Source: Verrucomicrobiota bacterium | GTDB lineage: Bacteria > Verrucomicrobiota > Verrucomicrobiia > Verrucomicrobiales > DEV007 | DNA length: 64,000 nucleotides | Reading direction: 5' to 3' | Assembly: GCA_024277195.1 (NCBI GenBank) | Contig: JAJRVS010000139.1 | Location: 1-64,000 of the forward strand | In this document: positions 16,975 through 64,000 of the stretch, piece after piece | Layout: the number at the start of each line of letters is the position of its first letter | Position numbering within the stretch: position 1 is the stretch's first letter | Translations under genes and position numbers: made by a program | Notes under the pieces: model-generated | What the model was told of the DNA's origin: nothing | The model's input: the letters and a program-made list of their open reading frames with translations, nothing else | Databases searched by the model: none

Positions 16975-18780
16975 TTAAATCGGCATCTCAATGACTTCGA
17001 GTATCTTCAAAGCATTTGTGGTTGTGGCGACCCCAGGGCGAACTTTGTAGTCAAATGTCATCTTCGGTTTTCCATCGGGATCGCGTTCAAAGTGTTCGCG
17101 GAAGTGAATCAAATCGGCATGCTCTGTGAGTTCTTCCACCTCGGCCAGCGCAAGGTCATGGGTAGTGATCGCTCCCATCGCATGGTTGCGGACAAGGTGT
17201 GCAATAACACGTTGCACGATTTCCCGGCGCTCCACAGTATTCGTCCCCTGAAGGATTTCATCGAGCAGAAAAAGCACGATGCGTCCCTTTTTATTCTCTT
17301 CAATGGTGAGGTTTACGATCTGTTTGATACGTTGAAGTTCTGCCATGAAAAAAGAAACTCCGTCAGCCAATGAATCCTGGACGCTCATGCTGGTTGCAAT
17401 CGTCAGCGGCGGAGTAATCAGAGAAGCCGCACAAACCGGCGCCCCGACACGGGCCAGAATGGTGTTCAAACCAATGGAGCGCAACAAGGTGCTTTTTCCT
17501 GCCATATTGGACCCGGTCACAAGAAGAAACCTGCCCTCAGGACCAAGCGAGACATCGTTGCCAACCCTTGAATTTTCGTAAATCAAAGGGTGTCCGAGAT
17601 TTTTTGATTGCAACCCGCCTGACTTCTTAAAATCAGCTAAAGTCCAATCGGGTTCATCGTAGTAGAGATTGGAAATGCTCGTCAGAGCTTCAATCTTGCC
17701 AAGGGCTTCGAACCAGGTGGAGAGCTTTTTCCCGTAACTTGTCTGCCAACTTTCAAGTTTCTTTACAACTTGCAAATCAAACCCGGCAACAGCATTGAGC
17801 AGAGGGTGTATGAGCGATCCCCGAGCAGCTGCGCCGGTGGCAATCGAATTGAACTCTAGCATCGCTTCACTGGCTTCATTAATTTCCGGAATTAATGTTT
17901 CGATTTCCCCAGCCTTAACTGGACAGGACTTTATGTAGTTAAAAATTTCCGCGTAGCTGCGAATTTTTTGATCCACTTTCGCAAGACCCGCGAGGGATTC
18001 ATTAATCGCGACCTTATACTTACAAACGATCGTTATATTTATTCCGATCACAATTAACGCAAAAGGAATAGGAGTTAAAATAAAGGTTAATATAATCGAG
18101 AGCAAGGTGAGCCACGGGGCAAATCGAAGGTATTTGATGAGGGTGTTTTTTTGCGTCAGCCAGATTTTTCTGATCATCCATTGCGGAATGATGACGGCTT
18201 GGTCCACTGCGAGAGTCTCCCCGATCACAGCGAGATTTTGCCTCCAGTCGAGATGTTCGCTGAGAGCTTTTGCAGAAACTTGTCGAAGTCCGATTTCTTC
18301 CGCAGGAGGTTGGTCGATTATCCACTGGGCAAGTGTAGCGCGCCCCTGAGGGGTTCGCTGAGTGGACAAAAGATGGAACAAAGATGCCGGGCCGAACAAA
18401 TCCAAATCCTGGGACTCGGGAAGCTGGCATAATTTGTCGGGCGCCTCAGGAACGGGGAATGCACTCCATTCCCTCCTGATACGATGAAGGGAATGTTGAT
18501 TGAGTTCCGTGAGGATGCGAAACCGGCCTTCTTCCTTAGTGACTTTCCGGTGCTTTATCACCAGAACAACAAACACACAAAAGCACAGCGCACTCATGGC
18601 ATACAAAGCCGCTGCGAACACTGGATGACCATTCCCTAATGTTGCAACAACGCCTGGGGGTAACGCTGCAAGAAAAATTATGAACCGATAGTTTGAAAGT
18701 TTCCCCGACTGGGCAGTGAATTCTTTTTTGCAATCAGAGAATTTTTTGATTCGAGATTGATAGACGGTTTCGCGGAACAT
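16975..18780 (-). CDS. membrane-anchored MutS-family ATPase
   Basis: 601 residues. The C-terminal half is the MutS ATPase domain: Walker A TGSNMAGKST, a following SIGLNTILARVGAPVCA, Walker B LFLLDEILQGTNTVERR, and TTHDLALAEVEEL. The N-terminal part lacks mismatch-recognition domains. It has one hydrophobic pair at about residues 30-75 and another at about 215-250, which would anchor it in the inner membrane. Such membrane MutS homologues are found in several phyla but their job is not known. It is not MutS1 or MutS2 (no Smr domain). The gene is isolated, with a 464-bp gap above it. Confidence 0.87.
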   Translation of the reverse strand: MFRETVYQSRIKKFSDCKKEFTAQSGKLSNYRFIIFLAALPPGVVATLGNGHPVFAAALYAMSALCFCVFVVLVIKHRKVTKEEGRFRILTELNQHSLHRIRREWSAFPVPEAPDKLCQLPESQDLDLFGPASLFHLLSTQRTPQGRATLAQWIIDQPPAEEIGLRQVSAKALSEHLDWRQNLAVIGETLAVDQAVIIPQWMIRKIWLTQKNTLIKYLRFAPWLTLLSIILTFILTPIPFALIVIGINITIVCKYKVAINESLAGLAKVDQKIRSYAEIFNYIKSCPVKAGEIETLIPEINEASEAMLEFNSIATGAAARGSLIHPLLNAVAGFDLQVVKKLESWQTSYGKKLSTWFEALGKIEALTSISNLYYDEPDWTLADFKKSGGLQSKNLGHPLIYENSRVGNDVSLGPEGRFLLVTGSNMAGKSTLLRSIGLNTILARVGAPVCAASLITPPLTIATSMSVQDSLADGVSFFMAELQRIKQIVNLTIEENKKGRIVLFLLDEILQGTNTVERREIVQRVIAHLVRNHAMGAITTHDLALAEVEELTEHADLIHFREHFERDPDGKPKMTFDYKVRPGVATTTNALKILEVIEMPI

Positions 18781-19245
18781 GTGATATTGGTGCGTAATCC
18801 TGTTTATTGGGCAATTTTCCCTGTGCCTTTTACCCCGAACAAAGCAGGAGTCAAAATAGCAGGAGAAACGATGTCAAAAAATGGGAATCAGAAGGTTCTT
18901 GCAATTCATTCACCCATTCTTTGATGCAATCTCCTTTGTTTCAGACTCTTTTCAAGCTCTCGCTATGCTCGGCAACCTTTGATGATGCGATTCATATCCG
19001 AGGTAATTACTCAGTTGTTTTGCGTGAGCTATACTCCTTCATTGTTTTCCTCCACTGCAGAAAACTCTTCAGATAAGACCACCGGAAATTTTTTTTCTTG
19101 CGGTATTTCATATCCTAGATCAGGGGTCAAACCCCATCTATTTTACTTCTTGTGTAGTTTTTCCGCACCACTGCCACGCCTTCTGCCTAATCCACTTTAA
19201 ACAAAAGCGGTTTGTCTCGGGCTTCTTCGCGGCTAAGCTCTCCCC
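18781..19245. other. intergenic region between the mutS-like gene and priA
   Basis: 465 bases between two divergent genes, presumably holding both promoters. The only structure I can support is the short palindrome at 19123-19136, listed separately. Open frames here (for example 18807-19076) look random in composition and have no recognisable motif. Confidence 0.5.
19123..19146. repeat. REP-like palindrome copy
   Basis: GGGGTCAAACCCC followed by ATCTATTTTAC. The GGGG/CCCC palindrome plus a following AT(C/T)T tract resembles two copies at 50861-50885 and 50951-50975, suggesting a dispersed intergenic element. Confidence 0.45.
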
Positions 19246-21504
19246 ATGCAAGCGGCTGCTTACATTGTGATCGATGGCTCTTCCGACCTCGAATTTGACT
19301 ACGCGATTCCCGACGAGATGAAGGAGAACATCGCGGTCGGTTCGCGAGTCGAAGTGAAGCTGCGCAACCGTCCCGCCACCGGCACGGTTTTGGAGATCAA
19401 AGAAATCGATGAACTGGAGTTGTCATTCAAACTCAAACCAATCAGCCGCTTATTAAGCGCCAAACCGGTGCTCACCGCTCCATTGCTCAAATTAGCCCAT
19501 TGGTTATCGGACTATTATTTATCCCCGCTGGAAACTGTCATCCGCAGCATGATCCCACAAGCGGCGCGCGAAGGTGAGGGTGGCGAAAAAACGCGCAAGG
19601 TGGTGCGCCTGATCAAAACTCCATCCGAGGAAGATCTCGCCAAGCTCAAAAAGCGCGCACGGCGGCAGGCGGACGCGCTGGATTATCTGGCTGGACTAAA
19701 ACCCGAGCCGGTCATGACGCTGTCCGAACTGGTCAATTCAATGGGCATCTCGCGTCCCTCGATCAAGGCTCTGGAAGAGCGCGGCTGGGTGCAGATCGAA
19801 ACACAAACTGTACAGCGTGACCCCTACGCTGGCGAAGAATTCCTACCCAGCCCCCCCTTGACTCTCAACCCCGAACAAAAAGTCGCGCTCGACGCAGTTC
19901 TCGCGGCGAAGAAAAACCCCAAGCGCAAACCCATTCTACTCTCCGGAGTGACCGGATCGGGAAAAACCGAAGTTTATCTGCAGGCGATCCAACACTGCAT
20001 CGACCAAGGCAAAGGAGCCATCGTATTAGTGCCGGAAATTTCCCTGACCCCGCAAACTGCCGAACGTTTCAAACGCCGTTTTGCGGCGATTCAGGATCAG
20101 GTCGCTATTTTACACAGTCACCTCTCGGCAGGCGAACGCCTCGATGAATGGCGTAAGGTGCTCGCTCGCAAAGCGCGCATCGTCATCGGCGCGCGCAGCG
20201 CGATTTTTGCCCCGGTCGATAATCTCGGTCTGATCATCGTTGATGAGGAACACGAAAATTCCTACAAGCAGGAAAGTCCACCGAGATACCACGCGCGGGA
20301 TCTCGCAGTGGTGCGCTCACATATCGAAGACTGCCCGGTGGTACTCGGCAGCGCAACACCCTCTCTCGAATCCTGGAACAATGCCCTGCACGGCAAATAC
20401 GATGTGGTTAAAATGAAGCTGCGTGTCGATGACCGCGAGTTACCGCTGATCCGCGTGCTCGACCTGCGCATGGAATCTCGCCGTGGCGGTGCGCGTTCCG
20501 GCCCGGCCATCCTTTCATTAAAACTGCGTCAAGCCATCGAAAAGCGTTTGGAAAATGATGAGCAAACCATCCTCTTCCTCAACCGTCGGGGATTCTCAAG
20601 ATCTCTGTTATGCCCTGAATGTGGCAAAGTGGTCGAGTGCCGTCATTGCAGTCTGCCGATGACTTTTCATCGCAAGGAAGAACGCCTCACTTGCCACGTC
20701 TGCGGATTCGCCCGCATCGTGCCCAAACGCTGTCCCGAATGCAAGGCCCGCGCCATCAGTCTGGTGGGATTTGGCACGGAAAAAGTCGAAGAAGTTTTGC
20801 GCAAGGTTTTCAGCGATGCTCGCATCGCACGGGTTGACACCGATACGATGAAACGCAAAAACCAATTGAAAGACACCCTCAGTGCTTTTAAGGCTCGCAA
20901 GATCGACATCCTGATCGGCACTCAAATGATCGCCAAGGGACTGCACTTTCCCAACGTCACTCTAGTCGGCATCCTCAACGCCGACATCGGTCTGCATGTG
21001 CCTGATTTTCGCGCTGGTGAACGCACCTTTCAACTGCTGACCCAAGTCGCCGGACGCGCCGGACGCGGCGAACTCTCAGGCGAAGTGGTGGTGCAGACTT
21101 TCACCCCCCACCATCCCTCGATCGCCTATGCCCGTCACCATGATTTCGAAGGTTACGCCGAGCAGGAATTGGAATTCCGCAAGCAGTTCAACTTCCCACC
21201 CTACCCGCACATGGTCATGCTCACCGTGCGTTCCACCCACATGACCCGCGCCGAGTTCTCGCTCAAAACCCTACACCTGCGTCTCACCAAAGCTCTGCCG
21301 AAGGACAACCCCGATCAGATCATCATTTCCGATCCGGTGCCATCGCCACTGGTCAAATCCCACGACCAGTTCCGTTTTCAGATCACCCTGCGCGCTAACA
21401 ATGCGCGCAAAATGACCGCACTGATCCGTGGAGTGATGAAAAAAATGTCCTTCCCTGCGGATGTGATTGCCACCGTCGATGTCGACCCTTATTCTTTAGG
21501 ATAA
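19246..21504 (+). CDS. priA: primosomal protein N' (PriA helicase)
   Basis: A 3'-5' DNA helicase that restarts collapsed replication forks. At 752 residues it is close to E. coli PriA. The N-terminal 3'-DNA-binding domain begins AAYIVIDGSSDLEFDYAIP. Walker A is GVTGSGKTEVY, and the DEEH box is VDEEHENSYKQ. Two zinc-binding clusters are seen (CPECGKVVECRHC and CHVCGFARIVPKRCPEC). Late helicase motifs are GTQMIAKGLHFPNVTLVG and TQVAGRAGRGE. The aspartate-containing stretch NADIGLHVPDFRAGER is typical. The start is the only reasonable ATG. It appears to be a single-gene unit. Confidence 0.96.
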   Translation: MQAAAYIVIDGSSDLEFDYAIPDEMKENIAVGSRVEVKLRNRPATGTVLEIKEIDELELSFKLKPISRLLSAKPVLTAPLLKLAHWLSDYYLSPLETVIRSMIPQAAREGEGGEKTRKVVRLIKTPSEEDLAKLKKRARRQADALDYLAGLKPEPVMTLSELVNSMGISRPSIKALEERGWVQIETQTVQRDPYAGEEFLPSPPLTLNPEQKVALDAVLAAKKNPKRKPILLSGVTGSGKTEVYLQAIQHCIDQGKGAIVLVPEISLTPQTAERFKRRFAAIQDQVAILHSHLSAGERLDEWRKVLARKARIVIGARSAIFAPVDNLGLIIVDEEHENSYKQESPPRYHARDLAVVRSHIEDCPVVLGSATPSLESWNNALHGKYDVVKMKLRVDDRELPLIRVLDLRMESRRGGARSGPAILSLKLRQAIEKRLENDEQTILFLNRRGFSRSLLCPECGKVVECRHCSLPMTFHRKEERLTCHVCGFARIVPKRCPECKARAISLVGFGTEKVEEVLRKVFSDARIARVDTDTMKRKNQLKDTLSAFKARKIDILIGTQMIAKGLHFPNVTLVGILNADIGLHVPDFRAGERTFQLLTQVAGRAGRGELSGEVVVQTFTPHHPSIAYARHHDFEGYAEQELEFRKQFNFPPYPHMVMLTVRSTHMTRAEFSLKTLHLRLTKALPKDNPDQIIISDPVPSPLVKSHDQFRFQITLRANNARKMTALIRGVMKKMSFPADVIATVDVDPYSLG

Positions 21505-61299: not shown

Positions 61300-61535
61300 T
61301 CAAGAGTTATTGACGAGTGATTTTCCTGGATTCTCGAGGAAATGGATCACTTGAGTAAGTACGTCGATGATTAGGTGAGATTGCTTGCGCACCGTTGAGA
61401 TCACACTTCGAAGGTCACAAAACGCTCGAGCATTATCCTCTCTTCGAAAAGTTCCACTGATTTTTTCCCGCGTTTTCATCATGCGAATATCTCGTTCAGC
61501 CTGATTATTATCAAAAGGCACACTCCCGTCTATAT
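61300..61535 (-). pseudogene. IS66-family transposase remnant (C-terminal end)
   Basis: 73-codon frame with VPFDNNQAERDIRMMKTREK and SGTFRREDNARAFCDLRSVISTVRK, the C-terminal signature of IS66 transposases. The N-terminal remainder is missing, with a stop in frame just upstream near 61540. No terminal repeats or accessory tnpB genes were seen. It marks a decayed insertion at the left edge of the cassette region. Confidence 0.9.
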
Positions 61536-61600: not shown

Positions 61601-61660
61601 GACTAACGCTTACAGCAAGCGCGTGAGGAACGACCGTCGCTTTGCCTGTGTTTGTTAGGC
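61601..61660 (-). other. attC recombination site of the left cassette
   Basis: A 60-bp imperfect inverted repeat beginning 3 bp after the stop of the cassette gene. On the minus strand it begins GCCTAAC and ends GTTAGTC. The arms match after one unpaired 4-base spacer (AAAC against GCTT): ACAGGCAAAGCG against ACAGCAAGCG, where two extra bases are unpaired. Unpaired spacer and extrahelical bases are typical of integron attC sites. The outer cores fit CTAAC/GTTAG. Confidence 0.82.
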
Positions 61661-61663
61661 ATT

Positions 61664-61954
61664 TTATTTCTCATGATTTTGACGGATTAATTCCCAATTT
61701 AAGTATTTCTCAAGCTTTGGCCAACTCTCAATGCGAGAACACAATGCATTACGCTCAGCAATTGACCAACCTATTAAAACTAATGGAAGTATAGAGTAAA
61801 TTGGATTTAATTTATGAAACAACATATAAGCAACCAGAAAACTCAATAACAAGCCAAAAAATAGAAGCGTATTTTTAGCTTTCTTTGCTTTTAAAAGACC
61901 TCCATTTTCTTTTAATGTGAGCCAGGTTTGAAGTATTTGTTTTTCATTATTCAT
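61664..61954 (-). CDS. integron cassette gene: small membrane protein
   Basis: 96 residues, function unrecognised. A charged N-terminus (MNNEKQILQTWLTLKENG) is followed by two helices (TLLFFGLLLSFLVAYMLF, IYSILPLVLIGWSIAE) and a charged tail. GTTAGGA (61962-61968 read on minus) lies 8 bp before the ATG, and an attC starts 3 bp after the stop, so the gene fills one cassette. It is AT-richer than the rest of the window. Confidence 0.75.
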   Translation of the reverse strand: MNNEKQILQTWLTLKENGGLLKAKKAKNTLLFFGLLLSFLVAYMLFHKLNPIYSILPLVLIGWSIAERNALCSRIESWPKLEKYLNWELIRQNHEK

Positions 61955-61961
61955 TTTAATT

Positions 61962-61992
61962 TCCTAACGTTTCGAGTGAGCTGACCACCTAC
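61962..61992 (-). other. attC-like half-site, 3' arm of the split site
   Basis: On the + strand TCCTAACGTTTCGAGTG and then AGCTGACCACCTAC. It matches the complement of 63477-63507 (GCCGAACAAACGAGTGG, AGCGAACCACCTAC), sharing CGAGTG, AGC, GA and CCACCTAC, with the unpaired GTTT/AAA spacer expected of attC. The two arms are about 1.5 kb apart, with a group II intron between them. Confidence 0.7.
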
Positions 61993-62086
61993 TGGCAGCG
62001 AGCTTTCGTAATCAGATTAAGGGTTAAAGTTTTCATGTAGGTTTGTAGAGTAGGGACGGCTCCGACTTGGAGCCATCCCCCTCATC

Positions 62087-62120
62087 AAACCGGACGTGCG
62101 GTTCTCCCGCATCCGGCTTT
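62087..62120 (-). ncRNA. group II intron domain V hairpin
   Basis: A 34-base hairpin on the minus strand: the AAGCCGGA arm pairs with TCCGGTTT, then TGCGG pairs with CCGCA around GAGAA. A two-base CG bulge precedes TCCGG. The catalytic AGC triad and the bulge are in the standard places for domain V, and the intron 3' end follows about 45 bases later. Confidence 0.85.
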
Positions 62121-62141
62121 CCGAAGTGATTCACCAATTCG

Positions 62142-62851
62142 CTATCGATTTCTCCAAGCCGCTTGTGGTGGTAACATATACAATCCGTATTCTTTTTGCA
62201 ATACTACTTCAGTATAGCTCTTGTATTTACTTATGCTTTTGCCTCGTCGCTTATGCTTCTTGGCCAGCCATGTTCTCGTCCGGTTGCCTAGCCAGTGATT
62301 CAAGACTCGGAAAGTTTCCGGACTGTGTCCGTAGTGGAAATAATTTCCCCACCCCCTCGTTATCCTGTTCACTCTGGCTATTGCCACCGACGAGTCTCGC
62401 CACGTGCTCCAATGATGCAGCTCCCCCCTTATCTTGTCCCTGAACTTAAGCTGTGATTTCTTGCTCGGTCGTCGATGAATATACCGATTTCCCGTTTCAG
62501 GAGAGCATCTTTCACTGTCGGGAAACCCAGTTTGCGCTCGCCCCCATTGGGTTTCGGGATGCTTATGCGTTTCACCGGACTCGGACCATAGGTCTTTTCC
62601 CGCAGTTCTTTCTGAAGGCTATCCCGGAAGTTATCCCAATCTGCCTCCATGGCTTCCACCGTATAACCATCCACGCCACTTCCGCCTCGGTTGCTCAGGA
62701 TTCGGCTCATCGCCTCCTCAATGAACTCCTTGCGGCACAAGTCTGCGTATAGGCTCCACGCTTTCCACTTTGGTTTCTTCTTCGCTTGTTGGTAGAGTGT
62801 TCGTTGAAGCTTCCGAACTTTCGGATGAGTTAATATCTGTTTTCCAGCCAT
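62142..62851 (-). pseudogene. broken group II intron reverse transcriptase/maturase
   Basis: The N-terminal fragment (62429-62851, 140 codons) holds the start region and RT-0/1: LYADLCRKEFIEEAMSRILSN, GGSGVDGYTVEAMEADWDNF, ISIPKPNGGERKLGFPTVKD. It then ends at a stop. The C-terminal fragment (62142-62387), in another frame, holds the maturase region: RVNRITRGWGNYFHYGHSPETFRVLNHWL. The catalytic part with the YADD box, roughly 200 residues, is missing. So there is both a deletion and a frame change, and the enzyme is inactive. Confidence 0.88.
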
Positions 62852-63476
62852 CTCTCCTCCTTTGCTTCTCTGTTCACATCCACTAAGTATGGCTCCTTTG
62901 CTCCACGCTCCATTACAGAGGTTTCAACACTACTATGAGCCACTCCGACTTCCTGATAAACCAGCGCACCCTTGCCGTAATGACTTGTGATGCGTGTTGT
63001 TTTGGCTGGCTCTCCAGCCTCGACATTCATCAGGATTTGCCATCGCGTTGCTCGCCCTGCGGGCAGCCTGCGGCTGGCTATCTTCGCTTCGCTCCGGTTC
63101 CCTGCTTGTCTCTATATCACTTCTTTGCATTCCGACCACGCAGACCCCGCCATGACGATGACTGGACGCATAATACCTATTGTTCTTGGATGCTGAAGCT
63201 CTCCGCGCTTTGCGCGACAAGCTATTGCCAAGTCTTATCCAGTCCCAGCGACCTTCTCTGCGAGTCGAACAGATCAGTTTCATGGAAGTTCGCCTTTCGA
63301 GGCTCATTAGATGTGGTTCACTTTCGTTTCGGACTACTCTTTAGAACTTGGGTTACTCCCCACAAAACATTTCCATCTTGCAGTTACCGGTTCTTCTCAA
63401 TCGAATAGGTTAAGGATTAAGGTGGAACTTTCATCCACGTAATATAGCCTTCACAGGCGTACCAACTCAGGACGGG

Positions 63477-63507
63477 GTAGGTGGTTCGCTCCACTCGTTT
63501 GTTCGGC
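63477..63507 (-). other. attC-like half-site, 5' arm of the split site
   Basis: On the minus strand it starts GCCGAAC 10 bp after the stop of the next cassette gene, then CAAACGAGTGG and so on to CCACCTAC. Its complement matches 61962-61992. The first seven bases are the complement of GTTCGGC, the core at 63901-63907 that begins this cassette, as expected because both came from the same circular cassette. Confidence 0.7.
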
Positions 63508-63517
63508 GATTTTAGTT

Positions 63518-63889
63518 TCATGAGTGTCCTTCTCCTTTGACGACGGCATCCCCTGATTCATCGAAACCAATGCAGTAATACCAATTCATGCCATTGATCC
63601 ACAGAAGGTATTCTACGGCATTCGAATGTTCAGCTGCATCGAAGTAATGTTCAAACCCTTGTTTTTGAGGTAGGTTGAAAGTTTCACTCTTCGTATGTGG
63701 CTCTCCAAGGGAATCAATTGCACTCCTCTTGCTTGAGCCAATCGCGACCTGTTCATAGTCTCGCTGCAAGCTTCTGTCGAAACCTGCAAAAAGGCTGCGG
63801 GGGCCGCGAAGCATTTCATAGGTGCCCAGCCCAATGACAACTGCAGCAATCAAGGTGGTGGCTACCATGGCTGAGCGTCTTTGTTTCAT
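63518..63889 (-). CDS. integron cassette gene: signal-anchored hypothetical protein
   Basis: 123 residues from ATG 63889 (the frame is open upstream but that part overlaps the attC). A basic start (MKQRRSAMVATTLIAAVVIGLGTYEML) makes an N-terminal anchor. The body contains SKRSAIDSLGEPHTKSE, EHYFDAAEHSNAVEYLLWINGMNWYYCIGFDESGDAV, which recalls small lipid-facing or SmpA/BamE-like domains (a G-x-P turn after a helix), but no family assignment is safe. It is preceded by a core site GTTCGGC 11 bp before the ATG and followed by an attC-like arm. Confidence 0.7.
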   Translation of the reverse strand: MKQRRSAMVATTLIAAVVIGLGTYEMLRGPRSLFAGFDRSLQRDYEQVAIGSSKRSAIDSLGEPHTKSETFNLPQKQGFEHYFDAAEHSNAVEYLLWINGMNWYYCIGFDESGDAVVKGEGHS

Positions 63890-63900
63890 GGTTTTTCTTG

Positions 63901-63953
63901 GCCGAACGTGAAGGCTAGCTATCCTCAGCGGGAGTGATGCTAGCTTGGTTAAT
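63901..63953 (-). other. probable attC of a further cassette
   Basis: AAGGCTAGCTATCCTC (63911-63926) pairs with GGAGTGATGCTAGCTT (63931-63946) with a few mismatches and an extra base. Core GTTCGGC is at 63901-63907 read on the minus strand. The outer 5' core is unclear (GTTAAT at 63948 or GTTAGGGC at 63965). It would end an upstream cassette beyond the window. Confidence 0.55.
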
Positions 63954-64000
63954 AATGTATCAAAGTTAGGGCGGACTTTCAACTGCAAACAGGCTGAGGA

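Follow-up and report, generated by a model that had tools for sequence, protein, structure and literature searches.

Sequence evidence for a decayed group II intron in the terminal loop of an integron attC site in a Verrucomicrobiales bacterium

The DNA analysed here, referred to as the window, is the stretch of 64,000 nucleotides that opens contig JAJRVS010000139.1 (C69 below) of a Verrucomicrobiota bacterium (assembly GCA_024277195.1). Comparison with other attC sites of the same genome places a group II intron of 1,418 nt, oriented like the cassettes, in the terminal loop of an attC site towards the right end of the window, where it splits one attC of 127 nt. We regard it as very likely that this region is the distal part of a chromosomal integron array, that an IIB-like intron reverse-spliced into an attC loop there, and that its reverse transcriptase (RT) decayed afterwards. 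The integron itself is ordinary; the unusual part is the intron residing in the loop in the sense orientation.

Results

The sequence supports the right end of the window as the distal end of an integron cassette array, with minus-strand cassettes, in a Verrucomicrobiales chromosome. The cassettes read leftwards toward chromosomal genes (SelO-like and ClpX) and the remnant of an IS66 element, all lying to the left of the array on C69, an arrangement that fits a distal end and leads us to expect the integrase to the right, as the initial annotation had proposed. The remnant is the C-terminal part of an IS66-family transposase (61300..61521, minus strand; Pfam PF03050, E 2e-6; NCBIfam NF033517, 60 bits, model positions 326-385 of 387). 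This transposase tail directly adjoins the last attC, and the remainder of the element is missing there.

The last cassette (61607..61967, minus strand) carries a single gene (61664-61954) for a protein of 96 aa with hydrophobic stretches, which has no match in Pfam, no match near the cut-off in NCBIfam, and one relative, at 29% identity, among 388 genomes of the phylum. Its attC is short, 60 nt (61601..61660, minus strand), with R'' GCCTAAC at 61654-61660 and R' GTTAGTC at 61601-61607. When folded as bottom-strand DNA, the inverted repeat that had been recognised there forms an attC-like hairpin, in which a spacer is left unpaired and some bases are extrahelical (z -2.2; equalled by 9 of 200 shuffles).

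The cassette upstream of it, which bears the intron, starts at GTTCGGC (63901-63907) and encodes a protein of 123 aa (63518..63889, minus strand). We place the start of its gene at the ATG at 63889, inside the cassette, and not at a TTG farther upstream. The protein has an N-terminal hydrophobic segment and a weak BamE-like similarity that stays below the cut-off (PF04355, E 0.027). It is a near-orphan, with no homologue in the 58 other genomes of the taxonomic family. Both cassette proteins had been called unassigned; both are near-orphans, and neither has a Pfam or NCBIfam match above cut-off. The attC of this cassette runs from GCCGAAC (63501-63507) to GTTAGGA (61962-61968) and so spans 1.5 kb. 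The start core GTTCGGC is the exact complement of R'' GCCGAAC of the same cassette, and GTTAGGA agrees with the complement of GCCTAAC at 6/7 positions, so that the correspondence previously noticed between cassette-start cores and their own attC cores holds, once exactly and once nearly. Further right lies the attC of the previous cassette (63900..64000 and on to C69:64023, minus strand), which extends 23 nt beyond the window. The interval 63901-63953 to which it had been assigned does belong to an attC, but covers no more than the 3' arm and a portion of the loop; the complete site is C69:63900-64023.

The initial annotation had proposed an attC model search, and a search for further repeats and an integrase in the flanking DNA. 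A covariance model, R1, was built from 13 attCs located elsewhere in the same genome, on other contigs, and contains no window sequence; it is mostly sequence-driven, RNAalifold having given 8 base pairs only. R1 matches both long sites, 61961-62076 (52.5 bits, E 1e-11) and C69:63900-64023 (41.2 bits), and genome-wide it finds 38 sites, two of them on C69, spread over 14 contigs. Within the taxonomic family, 37 of the 59 genomes contain this attC family. A complete integron integrase was found in the same genome at C9:605-1609 (TIGR02249, 383.5 bits; cut-off 265). It is divergent from a first cassette, the attC of which is also recognised by R1; such a divergence of intI from the first cassette is the usual integron arrangement. 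The array proposed from the window is thereby borne out. Because C69 stops 141 bp past the window end, we infer, rather than read from a continuous contig, that C69 and C9 belong to a single array whose integrase lies to the right of C69.

A second integron integrase, split into two overlapping frames, lies on another contig (L014, C187, 18458-19557). In contrast to the divergent layout on C9, it points in the same direction (18461-19383, minus strand) as the neighbouring cassettes, whose attCs lie at 17724, 16931 and 14017 on the minus strand; this second integron has probably been inactivated. C187 also has, between attC sites, an ORF of 338 aa (L014 15003-16019) that is encoded on the other strand from the cassettes and resembles by eye an IS110-type transposase.

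The terminal loop of an attC has no fixed sequence and is usually free to vary. In the genome studied here, the window stretch 61989-62044 occurs 11 times on seven contigs, the window copy included, and the 3' exon of the split site (see below) shows matches of 56-86 bp to attC loops on C187, C22, C80, C203, C328 and C219. On alignment, the copies all prove to be attC sites, some 120-130 nt long, that have the loop sequence TTTAACCCT.AAC in common. This loop motif is conserved across the attC contigs (L017, L018, L020 and others). The 56 bp of 61989-62044 were also considered as a separate mobile repeat, a candidate that was rejected, the stretch being the conserved attC loop.

The arms at 61962-61992 and 63477-63507 are complementary, with a score reached by 0 of 2,000 shuffles. 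Their complementarity had been noticed before, but they had been read as a repeat standing loosely around a gene, whereas they are the halves of one attC split by an intron. In the minus strand, domains V and VI of a group II intron are matched by Rfam RF00029 (50.5 bits, 62045-62121), the match ending exactly at 62045. The 3' end of the intron, CTCTAC, is shared with the introns of L106, L108 and L109, while the DNA downstream of those differs; its 5' end, GTACGCC, is shared with an uncultured Rubritalea (L043) and reads GTGCGCC in L108. These ends, the Rfam match and junction scoring define an intron of 1,418 nt at 63462..62045, minus strand (GTACG...CTCTAC). When it is removed, the flanks read CCACCTACCCCGTCCTGAGTTG^AAACCTACATGAAAAC and align without gaps to other attC loops, for example CGCTACTAGTCTCCAGTCGAAATCTAAATGAAAAC; the predicted intron-free junction is CCTGAGTTG^AAACC. 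The joined flanks reach 69.3 bits with nhmmer and a profile of 13 attCs from other contigs, and the predicted junction ranks first among the 289 tested within 8 nt either side. The 5' exon (63463..63507, minus strand, from the joined-flank nhmmer match) holds R'', L'' and the first loop bases, and the 3' exon (61962..62044, minus strand, from R1) the larger part of the loop together with L' and R'. Because the insertion lies in the loop, it has left both arms and the integrase boxes untouched. There was no target duplication and no target bases were lost; a clean insertion of this kind is what is expected of a group II intron. The 5' end, GTACG instead of GTGYG, counts against our explanation.

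The region had been described as two cassettes and nothing further. That reading, an ordinary distal array end in which plain cassette DNA fills the 1.5 kb separating the arms, is correct in that the array, the cassette boundaries and the integrase are real. It leaves out, however, the RF00029 match, a maturase X domain and an RT N-terminus, and removal of 63462..62045 exactly restores an attC loop. We consider it extremely improbable, and retain the group II intron that it had missed.

The intron is single-copy: a search with RF00029 found no further copies in the same genome, and a search of plasmids with the intron gave short matches only, covering 4-5% of the query. Inside the intron there is also a REP-like repeat, CGGAGCGAAGCGAAGATAGCCAGCCGCAGGCTGCCCGCAGGGCGAGCAACGCGATGG (window 63043-63108), which has matches of 80-96% in many genomes of the order and is missing from the corresponding position of the Rubritalea intron.

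At the RNA level, the cmscan alignment shows domain V (62087..62119, minus strand) with an AGC catalytic triad and an intact helix. RNA folding gives domain VI (62048..62083, minus strand) a long stem in which a single A, close to the 3' end, is bulged and is a candidate branch point; the two domains together fold at -47.8 kcal/mol (z -6.5). EBS1 (CGACUCG; 63261..63267, minus strand) lies in a domain-I hairpin loop that was placed by a weak RF02005 alignment. It pairs at 7/7 positions, two of them G-U, with IBS1 TGAGTTG (63463-63469), the seven bases with which the 5' exon ends. For the Rubritalea intron, the eight equivalent exon bases pair perfectly with that intron's own domain-I loop, and when the exons are swapped between the two introns the pairing falls to 2-3 bp. 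The chance rate per fixed position is 0.4% for a run of 7 bp and 0.2% for one of 8 bp. Domain I scores weakly (RF02005, 17 bits; gathering score 49) and may therefore have diverged or partly decayed.

The intron-encoded protein survives in two parts, in different frames. The N-terminal part (62486..62851, minus strand), from RT0 to about RT2, is matched by TIGR04416 positions 2-82 at 62486-62728, and NCBIfam thus recognises a group II RT N-terminus upstream of the X domain; its identity is 72% to the protein of the uncultured Rubritalea and 37% to that of G079. The C-terminal part (62142..62492, minus strand) is matched by TIGR04416 positions 275-353 at 62253-62492 and contains the maturase X domain (PF08388 GIIM, E 6e-14, 62142-62387). 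Between them, TIGR04416 positions 83-274 (about 192) are absent; these comprise RT3 to about RT6 and include the RT active site. The loss of the active site makes autonomous movement very unlikely now, and the intron is probably immobile by itself. The assembly yielded no intact intron protein. A short second fragment of a group II RT was observed at G000:C181:2514-2723 (TIGR04416 positions 206-277, 27 bits).

The bottom-strand folding that the initial annotation had suggested, carried out for the short site as described above, was extended to the split site. A partition function of the whole 1,545 nt gives 21.3 expected arm-arm pairs, against 21.9 without the intron. Among ten controls with shuffled arms, eight had fewer than 0.2 expected pairs and the other two 4.6 and 15.2. 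The attC stem is thus predicted still to form around a loop of 1.4 kb at equilibrium, the calculation being one of equilibrium that leaves out kinetics and single-strand-binding protein. Natural attC sites are 57 to 141 bp long, with most of the variation in the loop (PMC5371416), and the intron-bearing site lies far outside this range.

Discussion

The history that we propose would begin with a non-IIC, IIB-like group II intron (a tentative placing, as the intron has lost the RT core and matches D1D4-6 weakly), which would have reverse-spliced in cassette sense into the terminal loop of a long attC. The insertion would have been guided by the pairing of EBS1 with the loop motif TGAGTTG^AAA, and could have taken place in this genome or, ahead of the cassette's transfer, in a different one. 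Loss of some 192 RT codons would have followed and left the intron without self-movement.

The second of these routes deserves weight as a rival to retrotransposition in this cell: the intron may have arrived by homologous recombination, or within a captured cassette that was already interrupted. Cassettes do move between genomes; the genome holds no second intron copy and the RT is dead; and the gene of the host cassette lacks homologues in the 58 other family genomes. Nothing speaks directly against such an arrival. The interrupted loop belongs to the attC family of the host, yet this family is itself spread over more than half of the family genomes searched (37/59). We regard an earlier interruption or recombination as conceivable, though less likely than not.

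By either route, the split site would probably still fold as single-stranded DNA and, provided that it still recombines, could let the integrase move gene and intron together, a single cassette of about 1.9 kb. Intact domains V and VI, the branch A and the EBS1-IBS1 pairing would also make splicing possible in trans, so that the intron could still be removed from the cassette transcript with a maturase supplied from elsewhere. Splicing may also be dead, since the intron is single-copy and the assembly contains no intact intron protein.

It is tempting to see in the attC loop a safe harbour, with an intron lineage adapted to loops, where it does no harm to cassette recombination, travelling as cassette cargo and splicing from cassette transcripts, but we think this doubtful. 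In the same genome, the motif AGTYG^AAA, which the EBS1 of this lineage fits, is present in 6 of the 19 attC loops examined, and the full GAGTTG^AAA in one. An unoccupied attC at L014 16931-17056 has a loop with GTGAGTTG^AAA, the insertion motif of the interrupted site. Around the relatives' introns no attC sites were found with R1, a model tuned to the attC family of this genome. Specialisation of the intron for attC loops is thus possible and weakly supported, because the introns of its relatives do not lie in attC sites of this family.

Whatever its origin, a sense intron residing in the loop leaves the recombination boxes and the arms intact, and with this position and orientation recombination at the DNA level and splicing at the RNA level need not interfere with each other. 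The site offers a natural test of the loop length that an attC tolerates before recombination by the integrase fails. It also has a practical side: attC finders limited in length will miss such sites and report a single cassette, with the second arm kilobases away.

The arrangement is an unusual pairing of two known elements, seen once and in a decayed state; in the open-access literature on attC loops and on Verrucomicrobia integrons, our search turned up no description of an intron lying within such a loop. As an integron, the system resembles sedentary chromosomal integrons such as the V. cholerae superintegron in its many cassettes, its long and similar attCs (~120-130 nt) and its one divergent intI, and differs from them in the host phylum, in the loop sequence (conserved TTTAACCCT here) and in the fragmented assembly. 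As an intron, it shares the 5' end GTRCGCC with the introns of Rubritalea (L043/L110) and G079 (L108, L109), and its 3' end with those of G079. Unlike the window intron, these relatives are not in attC sites by R1, and hence their lineage may not be attC-specific.

The known integron-specific lineage is that of the group IIC-attC introns, which insert into the bottom strand of attC at R'' (TTGT/T), in an orientation opposite to that of the cassettes, with a hairpin standing in for IBS2; group IIC introns carry a CGC triad in domain V (PMC7923331). S.ma.I2 and its relatives are like the window intron in that a group II intron interrupts an integron attC in a cassette array, and membership of this lineage was weighed for that reason. 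However, the window intron occupies the loop instead of R'', and reads in the sense and not the antisense of the cassettes; its domain V triad is AGC instead of CGC, and its IBS1 has 7 nt instead of the 3-4 nt that follow a stem-loop in IIC-attC introns. Its nearest relatives, moreover, lie outside attC sites of R1. The window intron fails the tested features of the IIC-attC lineage, and that it belongs there is very unlikely.

The nearest precedent for a non-IIC intron in a cassette array is provided by one paper, in which IIB introns (CL1, class E) were described in integrons and CALINs of halophiles, namely UHB.I2, H.ha.F1 and H.ha.F2 (Sonbol and Siam 2021, PMC7923331). UHB.I2 has the orientation of the cassettes and stands immediately after an attC, while the H. 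halochloris copies are decayed and lie within cassettes, H.ha.F1 being without RT3 and RT4 (PMC7923331). The window intron is thus like them in being a non-IIC intron in a cassette array, like UHB.I2 in its orientation and like the H. halochloris copies in its decay. Its host, in contrast, is a member of the Verrucomicrobiales that is not a known halophile, and whereas the halophile introns lie after an attC or within cassettes, the one described here sits inside the attC loop itself, between two intact arms.
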